A stretch of DNA of 53,323 nt from assembly GCA_902772915.1 (NCBI GenBank), contig CACYCE010000017.1:1-53323 (forward strand), in the 5' to 3' direction. Made by a program: the position numbers and the translations under genes. Position 1 is the stretch's first letter; every line of letters begins with the position of its first letter. The notes under the pieces are model-generated. The model was not told the origin of the DNA. It did not search any database and worked only from the letters and a program-made list of their open reading frames with translations. Shown piece after piece: positions 2,287-13,822 of the stretch. Origin of the DNA: an uncultured Erysipelotrichaceae bacterium (GTDB lineage: Bacteria > Bacillota_I > Bacilli_A > RFN20 > CAG-288).

Positions 2287-3708
2287 TTATAACTCTACAA
2301 TAGTAGTCACACTTTCTTTTTGATAATAAGAAGGATATTCTTTTTGAGATATTTTTATATTTTTAATCTCTTCTTTTGGAGCATAACAATTGACAGTATT
2401 GTTAGAGTTATTAATTAAATATACAGGAATTATATCCATATTTAAATAATTTTTATACTCTCCTATTAAAATATTAGCCTCTTCTAATGAAGAAGTATTC
2501 ATTAAAGAAGTAGTAATCATATCTCCATAAGACCCATCTTCTATAAAGACAGTAACAGAAGAAAAGTAAGTGTGAGAATATCCAGTTAAAGAATCGATGA
2601 TGTGATGACGAATGATATTATCTTTATTGTAGAAATAGGCGTTATACGAACCGGAAGTTGACATTGAAAAAGTTCCTTCTTTAAACATTACTAAATCCGA
2701 AGGCGAATATTTACTCCCTCCTAAATAATTAATGCCAACTCTCTCTTCTTGATAATAAAGAGGATTCGATAAAGAAAACTCCCACTTAGATGAAGTTAGC
2801 TTACTACCAATACAAGAAATAGAACTCGTACCGGAATTAATAAACATATTCTTGTTAGGATACTTTCTTTTAAACAATTCTGTCGCTTCTCCTTTACCAA
2901 ACCCTCCTAAAGTTAAACTAGGTTTAGATAAATCGATATTAAATTTTTCTTTTAATGACTCAATTAATGGTGAATTATTCTTGATTACCTCGTCAATTCT
3001 CGGTATATTCTTGAAAATAACTGACTTATTAATGTCGTTTAATTGAACGTAAGTATTCAATTCTTGACTTGTTAAAGTCAAATCTTTGCAAAAATTAATT
3101 TCTTCATCTAAAGGGTCATCAAACATAACTTTTCTATTTAAAATTGATGATTCTAGATATCTATCTTTTACACTTGAATTTGTATAATCAGAAGACATAT
3201 CTAAATACGCATCCCACAATAGAGAAAGGCTACCTATACCTATATTAAATTTGTCTTTGCTGTGAATAGAAAAATCCAAAGCCTTTTTCAATGAATTGTA
3301 AAAAGATTCTTCAAGTATTATTTCTTGATTACTCCCGTAAGAATTATTGATAGTTTTTAAATTATTAATTACTTTTCCATCAGAAGAAGAATAGTAATAA
3401 TTATGTCTATCAAAATAAGCGTGCTTTTCTTTGAAAAAAGAATAAAAATCACTTTCTAATTCTTTATCGTAAATCTTATCTTGATTGCCGTAGCCGTAAT
3501 ATCTTAGTTGAATCGAAGTATTAAATGGAGCGATTGTGCCTTTTTCATCACTTAGAAGATTACCTTGTTTATCACAAGCATGGTAAGTCCCGGTATACGG
3601 ATTAATATTTCCGCACATCAAATCGATATACGAAACTTTTTCCGAGCAAGAACTTAAACTTAATAAGGGAATAAATGAGAATAATAAAGTCAGTGTTTTT
3701 TTATTCAT
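2287..3708 (-). CDS. apbE: ApbE-like FAD:protein FMN transferase, lipoprotein
   Basis: A 473-residue lipoprotein of the ApbE family, which attaches FMN to Thr/Ser of target proteins such as RnfG and RnfD. ATG at 3708 is preferred because upstream in-frame ATGs lie inside the terminator of the next gene, and because it places a clean signal peptide with lipobox LSSC at the N-terminus. ApbE signatures are GGFGKGEATEL, INSGTSS, HHIIDSLTGYSH and the metal-site region GDMITTSL. The N-terminal third is longer than in typical ApbE (about 300-350 aa). It lies near but outside the Rnf operon, its likely substrate source. No Shine-Dalgarno is present; the promoter suggests a leaderless mRNA. Confidence 0.8.
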   Translation of the reverse strand: MNKKTLTLLFSFIPLLSLSSCSEKVSYIDLMCGNINPYTGTYHACDKQGNLLSDEKGTIAPFNTSIQLRYYGYGNQDKIYDKELESDFYSFFKEKHAYFDRHNYYYSSSDGKVINNLKTINNSYGSNQEIILEESFYNSLKKALDFSIHSKDKFNIGIGSLSLLWDAYLDMSSDYTNSSVKDRYLESSILNRKVMFDDPLDEEINFCKDLTLTSQELNTYVQLNDINKSVIFKNIPRIDEVIKNNSPLIESLKEKFNIDLSKPSLTLGGFGKGEATELFKRKYPNKNMFINSGTSSISCIGSKLTSSKWEFSLSNPLYYQEERVGINYLGGSKYSPSDLVMFKEGTFSMSTSGSYNAYFYNKDNIIRHHIIDSLTGYSHTYFSSVTVFIEDGSYGDMITTSLMNTSSLEEANILIGEYKNYLNMDIIPVYLINNSNNTVNCYAPKEEIKNIKISQKEYPSYYQKESVTTIVEL

Positions 3709-3714
3709 ATTGTA

Positions 3715-3720
3715 ATTATA
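3715..3720 (-). promoter_or_regulatory. Leaderless -10 box of apbE
   Basis: TATAAT on the minus strand ends six bases before ATG (3706-3708), so the predicted first transcribed base is the A of ATG. No Shine-Dalgarno follows. It abuts the T-tract of the hpf terminator. Confidence 0.65.
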
Positions 3721-3724
3721 CATC

Positions 3725-3754
3725 AAAAAAGACTGGGAATATTTCTTCCCAGTC
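3725..3754 (-). terminator. Rho-independent terminator of hpf
   Basis: On the minus strand a 9-bp perfect stem (GACTGGGAA / TTCCCAGTC, 3731-3739 and 3746-3754) with a 6-base loop is followed by six Ts (3725-3730). It lies 20 bases beyond the hpf stop. Confidence 0.9.
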
Positions 3755-3773
3755 CATTTCATGGTTTTAGATT

Positions 3774-7596: not shown

Positions 7597-8109
7597 CTAA
7601 TTAGCTTTAAGTCTATTTAATTGTGGAATGCGCTTTATAAGCTGACTAACTATTAATGCTATCACTAATCCACTTCCAATACCAACTATAGATAATACAG
7701 GGAAATACAAGAACATATAAGGATTCTTAACTATTACTACATACATAATAATTTGACCTAGAACGTGGAAGTAAGAACCTAATATCGATATTGTATAAAT
7801 TGAACTCTTAGTAAATTGATATAAAACAAATGTTATGATAACACTTAAACTCGTTCCTACTATCGACAACAAAAATGAAGTGCCAAAACCTTGGAATAAT
7901 GCTACTAAAATTACTTTTAACAAACTGACTATCACATAATATGAAGGCCCTAAATACAACAGAGCAAATAGGCAAGGCAAAATAGCTAAACCTAATCTAA
8001 ATCCAGGGACTGGCATAGGTATGAAGCCTTCGACGTAATGTAAGACAGAGGATAAAGCTAATAGGAAGGCAGTGATTGTAATCTTTTTAACTAAATTGTT
8101 ATTACGCAT
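7597..8109 (-). CDS. Gx transporter family membrane protein
   Basis: A 170-residue integral membrane protein with about five hydrophobic segments. It contains the conserved stretch FIPMPVPGFRLGLAILP, followed by FALLYLGPSYYVIVSLLKV. This matches the Gx transporter / heptaprenyl diphosphate synthase component I family (PF07456), which often accompanies rnf genes in Firmicutes. AAGGAGG lies before the ATG, and the first 8 bases overlap the upstream NusG-II gene. Transport substrate is unknown; a role in Rnf biogenesis or quinone/flavin supply is only suggested by location. Confidence 0.75.
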   Translation of the reverse strand: MRNNNLVKKITITAFLLALSSVLHYVEGFIPMPVPGFRLGLAILPCLFALLYLGPSYYVIVSLLKVILVALFQGFGTSFLLSIVGTSLSVIITFVLYQFTKSSIYTISILGSYFHVLGQIIMYVVIVKNPYMFLYFPVLSIVGIGSGLVIALIVSQLIKRIPQLNRLKAN

Positions 8110-8662
8110 CAGGCCTCCTTATAGAATCAGAGTTAGATTTAATAGCAAACATCAAATAATTAGGAAGACAAACTACAGGTAAATTAGTAAAAGATACTTC
8201 CCCCTGTTTAGAACATATATTGTGAGGGGAAGTTTCTCTTATAATAGATATCTTTCCTTGTTTAACTTGTAAATCAACTTGAGGACCATAAAGTAAAGAA
8301 AAACCATTCAATATTAAATATTTACCGTTAATCGAAGAATAATCTTTAAGCTCTTTCAATGATTGAATACTGCTTTCTTCATAGCTAGAAGGATTGTAAT
8401 ATGTCTCACCTTGTTTTAATTTTCTTCTAAAAGAAAGAATATATTCTCTTTCTTCTAAAGAAGGAGAGATTACTTCTAAATTATTTAAGATAACTTCAGA
8501 ATTATAATTAACTTCTAAATAGGAAGCAGACTTACTAATCTTTACAGAAAAGTAAGACCATACAAAAACTCCGGAAGAGATAGCAAGTAATAAGAAAATT
8601 ATTATTGCATCTTTAATTCCGAAGTGAAAACGATCTGTAATCTTTTTGCTTTCTTCCCCCAT
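8102..8662 (-). CDS. NusG domain II-containing membrane-anchored protein
   Basis: A 186-residue protein with one N-terminal membrane segment (about 18-38) and an extracellular C-terminal NusG domain II (PF07009). The domain is recognised by GPQVDLQVKQGKISIIRE, then HNICSKQGEVSF and LPVVCLPNYLMFAI, with the usual pair of conserved Cys. About 60 residues between membrane segment and domain are unlike the short family form. Its ATG overlaps the rnfB stop (TAATG) and its end overlaps the Gx gene. Such proteins are common Rnf-operon companions of unknown role. Confidence 0.75.
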   Translation of the reverse strand: MGEESKKITDRFHFGIKDAIIIFLLLAISSGVFVWSYFSVKISKSASYLEVNYNSEVILNNLEVISPSLEEREYILSFRRKLKQGETYYNPSSYEESSIQSLKELKDYSSINGKYLILNGFSLLYGPQVDLQVKQGKISIIRETSPHNICSKQGEVSFTNLPVVCLPNYLMFAIKSNSDSIRRPDA

Positions 8663-9000
8663 TAGAGTTCAACTTTTAGAGTGCTTCCATCAGGGCCAGG
8701 TGTGGAATTAAGATAATCCACAACTTCTTGAGCTTTATCTTTGGCGATGACTTTACAAGTAGTAATCTTTTTGACTTCTCCAGAAATAACCGCATCTACT
8801 AAGCCAGAACACCCAGGGTAACCGCATCCTCCACAATTAGCGCCAGGCATCATAGAATTCATCTTATCAGCGCGAGGATCCGCTTCAACTTTAAATTTGC
8901 TAGAAATAACAGCAATTAAGATACCCATTATTACCGCTACAGCGACAATAACGGCGATCGCGACACCGATTTTACCACCGGCAGATAATTCTAAGAACAT
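8662..9000 (-). CDS. rnfB: RnfB-like subunit, very short (Fe-S domain only)
   Basis: Only 112 residues. An N-terminal membrane helix (about 10-33) is followed by the RnfB [4Fe-4S] domain with C56, C59, C64 and C82 (NCGGCGYPGC). Typical RnfB proteins continue with two or more ferredoxin-type 4Fe-4S domains; none follows here. The stop overlaps the next gene's ATG, and the downstream frames show no CxxCxxCxxxCP, so this is not a simple frameshift. AGGAGG precedes the ATG. In Rnf, RnfB takes electrons from ferredoxin; how this form does so is unclear. Confidence 0.8.
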   Translation of the reverse strand: MFLELSAGGKIGVAIAVIVAVAVIMGILIAVISSKFKVEADPRADKMNSMMPGANCGGCGYPGCSGLVDAVISGEVKKITTCKVIAKDKAQEVVDYLNSTPGPDGSTLKVEL

Positions 9001-9002
9001 AA

Positions 9003-9281
9003 TTATTTATTCCCTCCTTTATCATTTAATTCGTCTAAATTTTCTTTCTTGTCTTCTTTATATCCTTCGACCATATTTTTAGTTAAATCGGGGATAGAAA
9101 GTTCTTCTTCTCTTCTAGAGCAATTAAGCATACAGCCTTTGCATCCGACTTCGACTTTAGGGCAGTTGTCAGGAACTTTAGTTCTTTTATTTATTATGTA
9201 AGTGATAAAGAATACTACAAGTAACCCTACAAGAAGACCTACACCTATTAAAACTTTAGCGTAAGTAGGTAAATTAGCCAT
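9003..9281 (-). CDS. Small Cys-rich single-pass membrane protein in Rnf operon
   Basis: A 92-residue protein with one membrane helix (about 8-30) and then C40, C47, C50 and C54 (CPKVEVGCKGCMLNC). A charged tail ends DELNDKGGNK. The four cysteines could hold a 4Fe-4S cluster. It resembles FeoB-associated Cys-rich membrane proteins in general design but lies between rnfA and rnfB, one base beyond the rnfA stop region and two before rnfB. I know no standard Rnf subunit with this layout. It may supply an iron-sulfur site missing from the short RnfB. Confidence 0.65.
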   Translation of the reverse strand: MANLPTYAKVLIGVGLLVGLLVVFFITYIINKRTKVPDNCPKVEVGCKGCMLNCSRREEELSIPDLTKNMVEGYKEDKKENLDELNDKGGNK

Positions 9282-9282
9282 A

Positions 9283-9879
9283 TTAACCTAATAAACCTGC
9301 AAATGACATTACAGCCATAGCCATGAAAGCAGTGGTGATAAAGCCAATAGCGGCGCCTTTAAAGGCTTTGTGAGGAGTAGAAGCAGCTAAGATTCTTTCT
9401 TGAATAGCTGAGAATAACAACAAGACGATATAGTAACCTAAAGGTACACCTATACATAAAGCTAAGACGTTTTGAATTTGTTCGCCCCAGTTAGTGTTAA
9501 TTTCAGTGTAAGCGGAAACTTGCAAAGCTAAACCTAAGACGACACAGTTAGTAGTAATCAAAGGTAGATAGATACCTAGAGCCTTATATAAAGAAGGCAT
9601 GAATTTCTTCATGATGATTTCTAACATTTGAACTAAAGAAGCGACGACTAAGATAAAGGCAACAGTTTGCAAATAGCCGATATTTAAAGCGTTTAAGATA
9701 AACTGAATACCCCAACAAATTAAACCAGCTAAGACACAAACGACAGTTAAAGCCGCACCCATACCAACTGATGATTTCCATTTGTTAGAAATACCAATAT
9801 ATGAGCATAAGCCTTTATAACCAGCTAGAACGACGTTATTAACTAAGATAGAAGATAATAAAGTAATTAAGAATGTCAT
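9283..9879 (-). CDS. rnfA: Rnf electron transport complex subunit RnfA
   Basis: A 198-residue membrane protein with six predicted helices. The half-site NNVVLAGYKGLCSYIG and the later YLPLITTNCVVLGLALQ carry the Cys residues that, with RnfE, hold the intramembrane iron-sulfur cluster. Length is normal (about 190-200 aa). GGAGA precedes the ATG. RnfA pairs with RnfE as the core of the Na+/H+-pumping ferredoxin:NAD+ oxidoreductase. Confidence 0.93.
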   Translation of the reverse strand: MTFLITLLSSILVNNVVLAGYKGLCSYIGISNKWKSSVGMGAALTVVCVLAGLICWGIQFILNALNIGYLQTVAFILVVASLVQMLEIIMKKFMPSLYKALGIYLPLITTNCVVLGLALQVSAYTEINTNWGEQIQNVLALCIGVPLGYYIVLLLFSAIQERILAASTPHKAFKGAAIGFITTAFMAMAVMSFAGLLG

Positions 9880-9897: not shown

Positions 9898-10590
9898 TTA
9901 GGCAGCTTTAGCGGATACTTCTTCAGATTTATTTTTGAGTTCCGCAGCTTTTTTAACTTTGCGATCATTGACTTTATCTAAGACCATCTTGAACAAGCCC
10001 ATGATAATACCAATCCACAAGAATCCTCCGACAGCTTGATTCATTAAAGGAATGGCGAATCTTTGTAAAGGTACCCATTCGAAGACTAATTTAGATGTGA
10101 AAGGATTAGTCCAGGTGAATCCACCAGTACCGAAGAATTCTCTAGGGATAGCAATCAATAGACAGGCGATTAAGAAGCCTAAAGATTGACCAACAGCATC
10201 GCACATAGAATCAGTGACCGTATTCTTGCTAGCGAAGGCTTCCGCTCTTCCTAAGATGATACAGTTAACAGTGATTAGAGGTAAGAATTCACCTAAAGAA
10301 TCCGCTAAATCGGGAGTGAAAGCTTGCATCAATAATTGAACGCAAGTAACTAGAGAAGCGATGATGACAATATAGACGGGAATTCTTATTTCTGAAGGTA
10401 TAAATTTTCTAATTGAAGAGACGATCAAGTTAGCAAAGAATAAGACTAAGAAGACCGCAATAGACATACCTATAGCATTATTTATTGATTGAGTAGCAAT
10501 AATAACAGGACATAGACCTAAGACGATAGAAAGAATAGGGTTCTCAGAGAACATGCCTGCAAGTATTATTTGACTTTTTTTGCGTTTCAT
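9898..10590 (-). CDS. rnfE: Rnf electron transport complex subunit RnfE
   Basis: A 230-residue membrane protein homologous to RnfA. Six helices carry the Cys motifs in LSIVLGLCPVIIATQS and FLPLITVNCIILGRAEAFAS, where the second is the family signature. A lysine-rich tail follows the last helix. AGGAGG lies 9 bases before the ATG, 15 bases after the rnfG stop. With RnfA it forms the electron path across the membrane. Confidence 0.93.
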   Translation of the reverse strand: MKRKKSQIILAGMFSENPILSIVLGLCPVIIATQSINNAIGMSIAVFLVLFFANLIVSSIRKFIPSEIRIPVYIVIIASLVTCVQLLMQAFTPDLADSLGEFLPLITVNCIILGRAEAFASKNTVTDSMCDAVGQSLGFLIACLLIAIPREFFGTGGFTWTNPFTSKLVFEWVPLQRFAIPLMNQAVGGFLWIGIIMGLFKMVLDKVNDRKVKKAAELKNKSEEVSAKAA

Positions 10591-10605: not shown

Positions 10606-11166
10606 TTAATTCCCACTAGCTAATGTAATAGCATTAGCGATAATTTTATCTAAGGTTGACGTGATGACAGGAATAGTCTTCTGAGCGGTTTGACCAGAAG
10701 TTATGACTCCGCCAGGAGAATAAGGGAAAGAAGAAGCATAAATCTTCTTAGCCGCTGATAAACCGGTAGAATCCTCGTCACCAGTAATGTAGGAGAAGCC
10801 GATAATAGATTGACCATTAGGGCTAGTTAAGGCACCGAAAGTCACAGTTCCAGAATATCCTTTAGGAGTAGTAGCGTTGTAATAGTAATAAGTACTTCCA
10901 TCGGTACATTCAATCTTCATTCTAGAGTTGAGATTAGAATGTTCTTCTCCCTCCTTCCAATCGATAGTAATCATGGAAGATTCATTTTTCGCTGCAAGTT
11001 CATTTTGTTCTAAAACAGCAGTAACAGCTCTTTTAGCTTTAATAACATTATTCTCTGCAATCTTATTTTCAGTAGCGAAATTAACTAGAGCTAAAGTAGC
11101 TCCACAAACCAAACAAACTCCGCCTAAAACTATAGGATAAAGAGCGTATACAGGTAGTTTTTTCAT
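10606..11166 (-). CDS. rnfG: Rnf electron transport complex subunit RnfG
   Basis: A 186-residue protein with an N-terminal membrane helix (about 8-30) and an extracellular FMN-binding domain. Family features are GYSGTVTFGALTSPNGQSIIG and DEDSTGLSAAKKI. The flavinylation site is expected in VITSGQTAQKT (about 154-164), where the usual DxxSGAT reads VITSGQT; T160 is the likely acceptor. The ATG overlaps the rnfD stop (TAATG). The FMN would be attached by ApbE (gene at 2287-3708). Confidence 0.88.
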   Translation of the reverse strand: MKKLPVYALYPIVLGGVCLVCGATLALVNFATENKIAENNVIKAKRAVTAVLEQNELAAKNESSMITIDWKEGEEHSNLNSRMKIECTDGSTYYYYNATTPKGYSGTVTFGALTSPNGQSIIGFSYITGDEDSTGLSAAKKIYASSFPYSPGGVITSGQTAQKTIPVITSTLDKIIANAITLASGN

Positions 11167-12353
11167 TAGAAGGCACCTCCTATAAATACTGAATAGTTAG
11201 GAATTTGAGCAATAGCTTCAATTAGACTGACAGAAGCGTTGGCTTTATGGAAAGTTCCATAAACCAATCCGAAAATTATAGAAGCGACCATGATGCTAGA
11301 GATAATAATAGACTTTCTAGCGATATGTTGATTAGATTTGCCTTTAATAAGTTTAGAAATTAAAGGAGAAAGCATATTGGTGATGATGATAGATGAACCA
11401 ACACCTTCAGGTGCGGCAGCTTGATATCTAATTAAGCAAGCTACGAAGGCACATATAACTGTAACCATAATTCTTCCATATCTAGATGCAGGTGAAGTGA
11501 CAGGATCAGTTAGACAGAAGACACAGCCAAACAAGACTCCACCAATCATAATGTTCTTTAAAGCAAAAGCGAAAGAATCAGCACCTAATCCACCAGTAAA
11601 GCCCATGAATAAGCAAGTTAGATAGAAGGTAACTATATAGAAGACAGGAGTTCTCCAGTCGATAATTCTTCTAACCGCTAAATAAACGCAACAAATGATT
11701 AAACCGATGATGCAACTTTCACCCATACTACCGGCGTGAATTTGACCTAAGAACAATCTATCTAGAGGTATATCGTAAGTTCCATTTAACCATCCAGCTT
11801 GTTGAGTGGAGAACATAATAGAGGCACCAGCGTTGAAGTCTCCAGCAGCAGGAGCAGTACCAATATAAGTCTTCATAGAAGAGGAGAAACAAAGTTGACA
11901 GAAGACTCTACCAGCAACTGCGGGGTTAAAGATATTTCGACCGAAGCCACCAAATATGCACTTCCCAAAGAAAGTACCGATAAAAGCGGAAACAGCGCAA
12001 GCGTAATAATCGACACCTATAGGTAAAAGCAAGGTGAAGATTAAGCCGGAAATCCAACCGTATGAATGGAGAATTTTATATCCCCAATTCTTGAATCTAA
12101 TTTTGATATCTTTCTCTTTCTTATCACATAGACAAGAAGGAATAAGATATAAAGCGTCAGAGCCAACTGAAACACCTACTGAAATAACAAAAATAATTAA
12201 AGCGTGATTTCCCCATTCTCCTCCAAAAGAGACATAATAAGAAATCATTTCAAATAAGAATAATCCTAATAGACAAATGCCTAGTTCAACCATCATTGAG
12301 AAGGTGGAACGCTTATTTTGAATATGAGGTCCTTTTTCTACCGCAAATTTCAT
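11166..12353 (-). CDS. rnfD: Rnf electron transport complex subunit RnfD
   Basis: A 395-residue polytopic membrane protein. RnfD/NqrB features are FGGFGRNIFNPAVAGRVF and CVFCLTDPVTSPASRYGR. It is longer than most RnfD (about 310-350 aa), partly from an added basic cytosolic loop CDKKEKDIKIRFKN. The flavinylation region reads DFNAGAS (Ser near residue 178) instead of DxxSGAT. ATG at 12353 is preferred over 12362, because AGGAGG lies only one base from the latter and 10 from the former. Confidence 0.9.
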   Translation of the reverse strand: MKFAVEKGPHIQNKRSTFSMMVELGICLLGLFLFEMISYYVSFGGEWGNHALIIFVISVGVSVGSDALYLIPSCLCDKKEKDIKIRFKNWGYKILHSYGWISGLIFTLLLPIGVDYYACAVSAFIGTFFGKCIFGGFGRNIFNPAVAGRVFCQLCFSSSMKTYIGTAPAAGDFNAGASIMFSTQQAGWLNGTYDIPLDRLFLGQIHAGSMGESCIIGLIICCVYLAVRRIIDWRTPVFYIVTFYLTCLFMGFTGGLGADSFAFALKNIMIGGVLFGCVFCLTDPVTSPASRYGRIMVTVICAFVACLIRYQAAAPEGVGSSIIITNMLSPLISKLIKGKSNQHIARKSIIISSIMVASIIFGLVYGTFHKANASVSLIEAIAQIPNYSVFIGGAF

Positions 12354-12371
12354 ATTGACCATTCCTCCTTT

Positions 12372-13727
12372 CTATTTTTTAGCCTCAGCTGCAGGTTCCT
12401 TTTTAGGAGCGGGAGCGGGTTTTCTTTGAGCACGAGGGCATTTAATTGTGGTCATTAACTTAGCTTGTTTAACTTGACCGCTGACTTCAATGTGAGAAGG
12501 GCAGACAAATGAACAAGTACCGCAATTTACACATTCTAGAACATTCAAATCGAAGCACTTATCAAAGTCTCCTCTTCTAGCGGCATCGTTAATTTCAACA
12601 GGCATCAAATTCATAGGACAGTGAGCTATGCAATTACCGCAGTGGAGACAAGGTTCTTCTCTGATAGTCTTAACTGGAGTAACTGTGATAGCGTCATTTT
12701 GAATTAATAGAGGAACATCATCGGACATCTGACATTCAGAACACATAGGTCCGCCTAAGAGTAAAGAAGCCTTTTCAGCGGTATATCCACCTACATAATT
12801 AATAGCGTCTTTAACTAATGTGCCATAAGGGAGAGAAACATTTTGAGGATTTTTAACTAATCCTGAGATAGTAATTACTTTATTGGAGATAGTTTCACCA
12901 TAGAAGAACAAACGAGATATTGCTAAAACTGTGGCGAAGTTATTAACAATAACTCCACATTGACTAGGTAGCTTGTCGTAAGTTCTATTTAGCGCTAGAG
13001 AAATCATCGTTCTTTCAAAGCCGGCAGGATAGACTGATTTAATTCCTTTGACTTTAATACGAGGATCTCCAAATTTGTCTACTTCTTGTTGGAACTTTTC
13101 AAGCATCTTGACCTTTTCTAACTTAGTTACTAAAAAGGTCTGCTTAATATTCAAAGCGTCCATTAAGACCTTCAAAGCTTTCATCATGTCTTGAAGATCG
13201 TATTTTAAACAAGTGACGTAATCTGTAGTTAAATATGGCTCACACTCTGCAGCGTTAACTAAAATCGTATCGATAGGATCTTTGGTATTGTACTTAATAA
13301 AAGTAGGGAAACCTGCTCCGCCTAAACCAACAATACCACCTTCTTTTAATTTAGCGACAACGTTAGCTTGGTTTATTTCACCTTCTAAAGGTCTAAGAGT
13401 AATTCTTTCGCCTTTCTTGTCGTTTTCAATTTCTATAAAATCAACAGGACGACCTACCACGGTTGATTTCTTTTTGACAATGGCTGATACCTTACCTGAA
13501 ATTGGTGAGTAAATAGGAACTCCAAAGTCTTTCCTCACACCTAACAAAGTACCTACTTTTACTTCCGCGCCAGCTTCAACGCGAGAGTCTAAAGGTAAAC
13601 CTTTGTTATCCACTCCAGGAACATAAACTTTTTCAGGGTCAAAAAAACTAATTTCCCCTTCTTCAGTTTGTTCCTTATGGCCAGGGATTTTGGTACACCC
13701 ATCCGAAGAAAAAAGATGTAATAACAT
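12372..13727 (-). CDS. rnfC: Rnf electron transport complex subunit RnfC
   Basis: A 451-residue NADH-site subunit. It has an N-terminal barrel-sandwich domain (VEAGAEVKVGTLLGVRK), the NuoF-like FMN/NADH domain (GGIVGLGGAGFPTFIKY, then VNAAECEPYLTTDY) and a SLBB region. Two C-terminal 4Fe-4S motifs read CLHCGNCIAHCP and CVNCGTCSFVCP. The tail is lysine/proline/alanine-rich. ATG at 13727 has AGGAG nine bases upstream; the TTG at 13733 is too close to it. First gene of the Rnf operon. Confidence 0.93.
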   Translation of the reverse strand: MLLHLFSSDGCTKIPGHKEQTEEGEISFFDPEKVYVPGVDNKGLPLDSRVEAGAEVKVGTLLGVRKDFGVPIYSPISGKVSAIVKKKSTVVGRPVDFIEIENDKKGERITLRPLEGEINQANVVAKLKEGGIVGLGGAGFPTFIKYNTKDPIDTILVNAAECEPYLTTDYVTCLKYDLQDMMKALKVLMDALNIKQTFLVTKLEKVKMLEKFQQEVDKFGDPRIKVKGIKSVYPAGFERTMISLALNRTYDKLPSQCGVIVNNFATVLAISRLFFYGETISNKVITISGLVKNPQNVSLPYGTLVKDAINYVGGYTAEKASLLLGGPMCSECQMSDDVPLLIQNDAITVTPVKTIREEPCLHCGNCIAHCPMNLMPVEINDAARRGDFDKCFDLNVLECVNCGTCSFVCPSHIEVSGQVKQAKLMTTIKCPRAQRKPAPAPKKEPAAEAKK

Positions 13728-13822
13728 ATCCAAATGCTCCTCTAAGAAAGTAAATTAATATAAAAATATGTAATTAGTTTACTAACAAATATTAAAATAA
13801 TTAATTTATATAACAAAAACTA
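13728..13822 (-). promoter_or_regulatory. Upstream region of the Rnf operon
   Basis: This 95-bp AT-rich gap must hold the rnf promoter. TATATT boxes are visible on the minus strand but no unambiguous -35/-10 pair. An inverted repeat TTAGT-TT-ACTAA at 13774-13785 could be an operator; it does not match the Rex consensus. Confidence 0.35.

Follow-up and report, generated by a model that had tools for sequence, protein, structure and literature searches.

The question raised by this locus is what a small, cysteine-rich membrane protein contributes to the Rnf pump when its gene sits between rnfA and rnfB. The window, which is the whole stretch of DNA that was analyzed (53,323 nucleotides from an uncultured Erysipelotrichaceae bacterium), carries this gene, here called X, on the minus strand at positions 9003 to 9281. 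It is an open reading frame of 92 amino acids with an ATG start, it has relatives at the same place in other operons, and it is the only copy in the genome. One base separates X from the end of rnfA (9283 to 9879), and two bases separate it from the start of rnfB (8662 to 9000); these and all of the other window genes named here lie on the minus strand. The order rnfC-rnfD-rnfG-rnfE-rnfA was backed by TIGR01943 to TIGR01948, with some matches under the curated cutoffs: rnfC (12372 to 13733) matched TIGR01945 above the cutoff, rnfD (11166 to 12362) matched PF03116, rnfG (10606 to 11166) matched TIGR01947 at 4.7e-13, under the cutoff, rnfE (9898 to 10590) matched both TIGR01948 and NF009070, and rnfA matched TIGR01943 at 5.6e-56, under the curated cutoff. 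Beyond rnfB lie genes for a NusG domain II protein, a frequent companion of rnf genes (8102 to 8662; PF07009), and for an Hpre_diP_synt_I/ECF-like membrane protein (7597 to 8109; PF07456), and apbE, encoding an FMN transferase of the Rnf-maturing kind, is found at 2287 to 3762 (PF02424, 6.6e-23). Despite this nearby apbE, the RnfG and RnfD proteins of the window contain no usual [ST]G[AS][TS] flavin-attachment motif. Other loci of the same order (L013, L059, L062, L074, L014, and L016) encode an RnfD of 650 to 1000 amino acids and an RnfG of 330 to 470 amino acids, and several of them have repeated [ST]GA[ST] motifs, resembling extra covalent-flavin sites. The genome of the window also encodes a pyruvate:ferredoxin oxidoreductase domain protein, and reduced ferredoxin is therefore a plausible substrate.

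The X protein has two recognizable parts. AlphaFold2 predicted a single confident membrane helix at residues 6 to 33 (9183 to 9266; block pLDDT, 84 to 98), and alignments delimited a cysteine segment with C40, C47, C50, and C54 (9120 to 9164), which reads PDNCPKVEVGCKGCMLNCSRREE and follows the pattern C-x6-C-x2-C-x3-C. The cysteine tail was modeled with no confident fold, which gives no verdict on a cluster because AlphaFold2 models no metal. Since the K/R-rich stretch NKRTK comes after the helix, the tail is predicted by the positive-inside rule to be cytoplasmic. No Pfam or NCBIfam model matched X above its cutoff, and no chain among the solved structures matched it.

The RnfB encoded next to X is also unusual. 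It is only 112 amino acids long and consists of a membrane anchor helix and one FeS domain (PF04060), with the CGxCGxxGC...C motif of that domain present and no Pfam match to a C-terminal, ferredoxin-accepting Fer4 domain; it scored 60.1 bits against TIGR01944, for which the cutoff is 68.7. The predicted structure likewise showed a helix and an FeS domain (pLDDT, 92.7). In the solved complexes, the helix of RnfB is followed by a small [4Fe-4S] domain and then by a larger acceptor domain that holds two to seven clusters (PMC12174285). The short RnfB profile aligned to residues 3 to 90 of the 333-amino-acid protein of Acetobacterium woodii, and the first ~90 residues of the proteins from A. woodii, Clostridium tetanomorphum, and Azotobacter vinelandii (9ERI, 7ZC6, and 8AHX) correspond to the short RnfB, whereas those proteins extend further into a ferredoxin-like domain, missing from the short version, that carries two to seven [4Fe-4S] clusters (PMC12174285). 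A sequence-only reading of this DNA had described X as one helix plus CX6CX2CX3C packed tightly between rnfA and rnfB, had called RnfB truncated, and had known of no such standard subunit; the reading frame and intergenic gaps, the domain content of RnfB, and the library and structure searches all agree with that description. A different arrangement was seen in family f14 (L105, L115, and L118), where an RnfB of 183 to 187 amino acids carries a tandem pair of FeS-type domains and lacks a Fer4-type motif, with X adjacent.

This gene arrangement is not peculiar to the window. In its family, a single-sequence search found X in 11 of 23 genomes, and the family operons that were fetched had X between rnfA and short rnfB, with relatives in the equivalent position sharing 35 to 52% identity. 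Within the order, rnfA was carried by 126 of 245 genomes, and about 70 rnfA loci showed rnfA-X-short rnfB as the rule, with gaps mostly of −8 to +4 bases. The exceptions were G037, with X by apbE; G191, at an assembly gap; G149, which has Nqr-like genes in place of rnf (L080 and L081); and loci cut at contig ends. The apparent RnfA-X fusion in G191 was ruled out, since its frame runs across a stretch of N that hides the start of X. In G037 (L144:1878-3405), X lies directly after apbE, overlapping its end, about 3 kb from rnf and on the other strand. A named-locus set that includes Erysipelotrichaceae, Anaeroplasmataceae, and uncultured Bacilli, which partly overlaps the class genomes and from which two loci were read by hand, had X immediately 3′ of rnfA in 80 of 80 cases and a short RnfB (about 89 to 129 amino acids) after it in 79, the exception (L266) being cut by a contig end. 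Cultured carriers include Catenisphaera adipataccumulans, Absicoccus porci, and Lactimicrobium massiliense. When 60 sequences from the order were aligned, three cysteines never varied and a Phe and a Pro close to the helix were nearly invariant as well, while over 68 diverse sequences the cysteine core was the sole invariant part. Across 101 sequences, the family pattern is C-x(3-10)-C-x2-C-x(3-5)-C; every member keeps the core C-x2-C-x(3-5)-C, the spacing ahead of it ranges from x3 to x10, and the first cysteine is absent in 20, leaving four cysteines in 81 sequences and three in the rest.

To what extent X follows the short RnfB was examined in a class sample of 346 genomes, with X called at an E value of ≤1e-6 and related genomes counted as if independent. 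Of the 193 genomes with rnfA, 161 carried X, against 3 of the 153 that lack rnfA; two of those three were drafts about 85% complete. The remaining carrier, G073 (L152:6151-6387), is a 96%-complete genome with no detectable rnfA, and its X is possibly a relic. When RnfB was counted as short if no long frame occurred among the matches listed, supplemented by 132 operons read directly, X was present in 161 of 176 short-RnfB genomes. It was found in none of 7 genomes with full-length RnfB, which were searched again with a wider profile, and in none of 10 genomes with an rnfA-type gene and no RnfB match, which were taken as Nqr type. Five of the 15 short-RnfB genomes with no X match belong to family f17, in which two operons read by eye contain a tiny X-like frame with three cysteines; several others are incomplete drafts, and one (G326) does have X in its operon. 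Among the 132 operons, 97 had a short RnfB and an adjacent X, 29 had a short RnfB and no adjacent X (one of these, in a full-length genus, was cut by a contig end), and 6 had an RnfB with Fer4 domains, none of them with X. Families f12 and f20 were themselves divided, with full-length-RnfB genera that have no X and other genera with short RnfB and X. A phylum search matched X within the class of the window only; Clostridia, a separate phylum in GTDB, was outside its reach. When the window protein alone served as the query, neither viral contigs nor genome contigs gave a match, and in the collection of papers searched, none covered both RnfB and Erysipelotrich-.

X is not always encoded in the rnf operon. 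In f23, f10, and part of f12, it adjoins a dCMP deaminase gene, mostly between that gene and tcdA/aspS, and in f28 and f26 it lies between the phosphoglucomutase and uracil-DNA glycosylase genes (neighbors were identified by Pfam on one example of each and otherwise assigned by similarity). These genomes keep the short-RnfB operon with nothing of X between rnfA and rnfB. X is thus retained where it is not cotranscribed, and its link to Rnf is not based on operon position alone. The numbers of RnfB and X ran roughly parallel but not strictly one to one: 23 single-operon genomes had one of each, G283 had one RnfB and two X, and in seven multioperon short-RnfB genomes X was less numerous than RnfB in four (RnfB:X in G255 and G312, 3:2; in G277 and G246, 2:1) and equal in three (G266 and G273, 2:2; G288, 3:3). 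In family f19 (L204 to L212), two or three divergent rnf operons share one small genome, all with short RnfB, and the extra operons have no adjacent X. The sequence-only reading had proposed checking for co-occurrence with short RnfB, and the class counts bear this out. It had also named two patterns that would speak against its proposal: the first, wide occurrence away from rnf, was found in part (in f10, f12, f23, f26, and f28, all with short-RnfB Rnf), whereas occurrence with full-length RnfB was not. Overall, many anaerobes of the gut and rumen within one class possess a stripped-down Rnf, and X accompanies it almost without exception. From this near-constant pairing, X is probably a helper dedicated to this pump, one that builds or joins its iron-sulfur electron path.

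Distant kin of X were found outside Rnf. The window protein scored 15.4 bits against PF12669 (E value, 0.023; cutoff, 27 bits), 26 of 60 X members matched this model under the cutoff, and the weak second matches of the X profile in the order were feoB-adjacent proteins belonging to PF12669. Alignment of the X family to the FeoB-associated family with hhalign gave a probability of 97.4% (E value, 1.1e-11) over helix and cysteines, a signal that comes partly from the hydrophobic helix. By these profile comparisons, X is distantly related to the Cys-rich membrane proteins associated with FeoB, which, like X, are small and consist of a single helix with a Cys-rich tail after it. However, PF12669 proteins are encoded by feoB and X in rnf operons, some X-bearing genomes of the order have separate PF12669 copies beside feoB, and the cysteine spacing of X differs from the Cx3-5Cx2-3Cx6-8C published for FeoB-associated proteins (PMC8749426). 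The kinship and the feoB-adjacent matches therefore suggest that X is a distinct, Rnf-linked branch of a wider kind. X was ruled out as a truncated copy of RnfB, having no CGxCG motif and Pfam matches that point elsewhere. A second small protein that resembles X is NqrM (DUF539, PF04400), which is encoded with the membrane subunits of its pump and has a single helix and four cysteines. No sequence match between X and NqrM was seen: PF04400 was not one of the 25 families to which X members matched most often, had no match in the genome of the window at an E value of 0.1, and was not found in 13 further genomes from the class, Nqr-type genomes included. By eye, no RseC-like counterpart gene was seen at two ends of full-length-RnfB operons.

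The explanation that we tentatively favor, while granting it somewhat less than an even chance, is that X is a dedicated accessory of the Rnf type without the ferredoxin-accepting domain of RnfB and serves as a donor of iron or Fe-S clusters. The tail would face the cytoplasm and hold iron or a nascent cluster with the C-x2-C-x(3-5)-C core and, in most members, the fourth cysteine. X would then pass this cargo to the intramembrane [2Fe-2S] cluster of RnfA-RnfE or to the [4Fe-4S] cluster of the short RnfB, much as has been proposed for NqrM in the case of Nqr, and reduced ferredoxin would dock straight on the small FeS domain of the short RnfB. Nearly as likely, and placed slightly behind, is that X is a structural subunit with a surface Fe-S cluster that, together with the short RnfB, forms the entry for electrons from ferredoxin and replaces the missing domain, as the sequence-only reading had suggested. 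The co-occurrence counts, the split within f12 and f20, the tight packing of rnfA-X-rnfB, and the four cysteines of most members all fit a subunit of this kind. On the other side, members with three cysteines, the variable spacing, and a tail with no confident fold are unlike a relay domain, and X is outnumbered by RnfB in the four multioperon genomes and kept in trans, far from rnf, in several families; these same points favor the donor. The donor is also favored because X is akin to feoB-adjacent proteins (profile-profile probability, 97%), because in G037 X has moved out of rnf to apbE, another Rnf maturation gene, and because there is a precedent in NqrM, which is predicted to deliver iron to Nqr, a pump with the same intramembrane [2Fe-2S] cluster (PMC12174285; PMC6209661). 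With the first cysteine missing in 20 of 101 sequences and homology to FeoB-associated proteins, iron delivery or maturation fits at least as well as relay. Counting against the donor, X showed no sequence match to NqrM, the full-length-RnfB and Nqr-type genomes have no X, and NqrM was not found in the 14 genomes searched, Nqr-type ones among them. The intramembrane cluster can thus apparently be made with neither protein, and it is unlikely that such a donor is generally required.

The correlation with short RnfB is itself open to more than one reading. In an RnfA tree of unknown root and with some long branches, the full-length-RnfB operons grouped together, near the Nqr branch, and they therefore look like foreign replacements of the native operon. 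If whole operons were replaced, loss of X would be expected whether it donates iron or relays electrons; the correlation may thus reflect operon replacement, which weakens the case for a relay in particular. A probable single origin of this Rnf type, in which short RnfB and X may have arisen together, also confounds the correlation. It is less likely than not, though far from remote, that X and short RnfB amount to a rebuilt electron-entry module, so that a large part of the class would have a ferredoxin:NAD oxidoreductase lacking the acceptor domain of RnfB, with a tethered Cys mini-domain relaying electrons from free ferredoxin. A less probable role for X would be to stabilize the short RnfB and place it against RnfA/RnfE, its cysteines serving as a structural metal site or in redox sensing. 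The gene position, the shortness of both proteins, and the near-invariant Phe and Pro beside the helix are consistent with this, but the cysteine core, the part that is strictly kept across diverse members, would be needless in a pure helix bundle. Very improbable is that X is a general iron handler of the FeoB-associated type whose place in the rnf operon is accidental; its homology to PF12669 and its place among housekeeping genes in several families would suit such a role, but the phylogenetic profile over rnfA-positive and rnfA-negative genomes is strongly against it, and some X-bearing genomes hold separate FeoB-associated copies.

In all solved Rnf complexes, electrons enter via a large, clustered RnfB domain, and the class-wide type described here does without that domain while keeping an extra conserved protein that none of the searched libraries names above its cutoff. 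Donation and relay can both be tested in cultured carriers such as Catenisphaera adipataccumulans. We know of no Rnf factor for assembling the membrane-buried iron-sulfur cluster, and, if X is a donor, it would show how this cluster is assembled; if X instead relays electrons, it would be part of a second route by which they enter Rnf.
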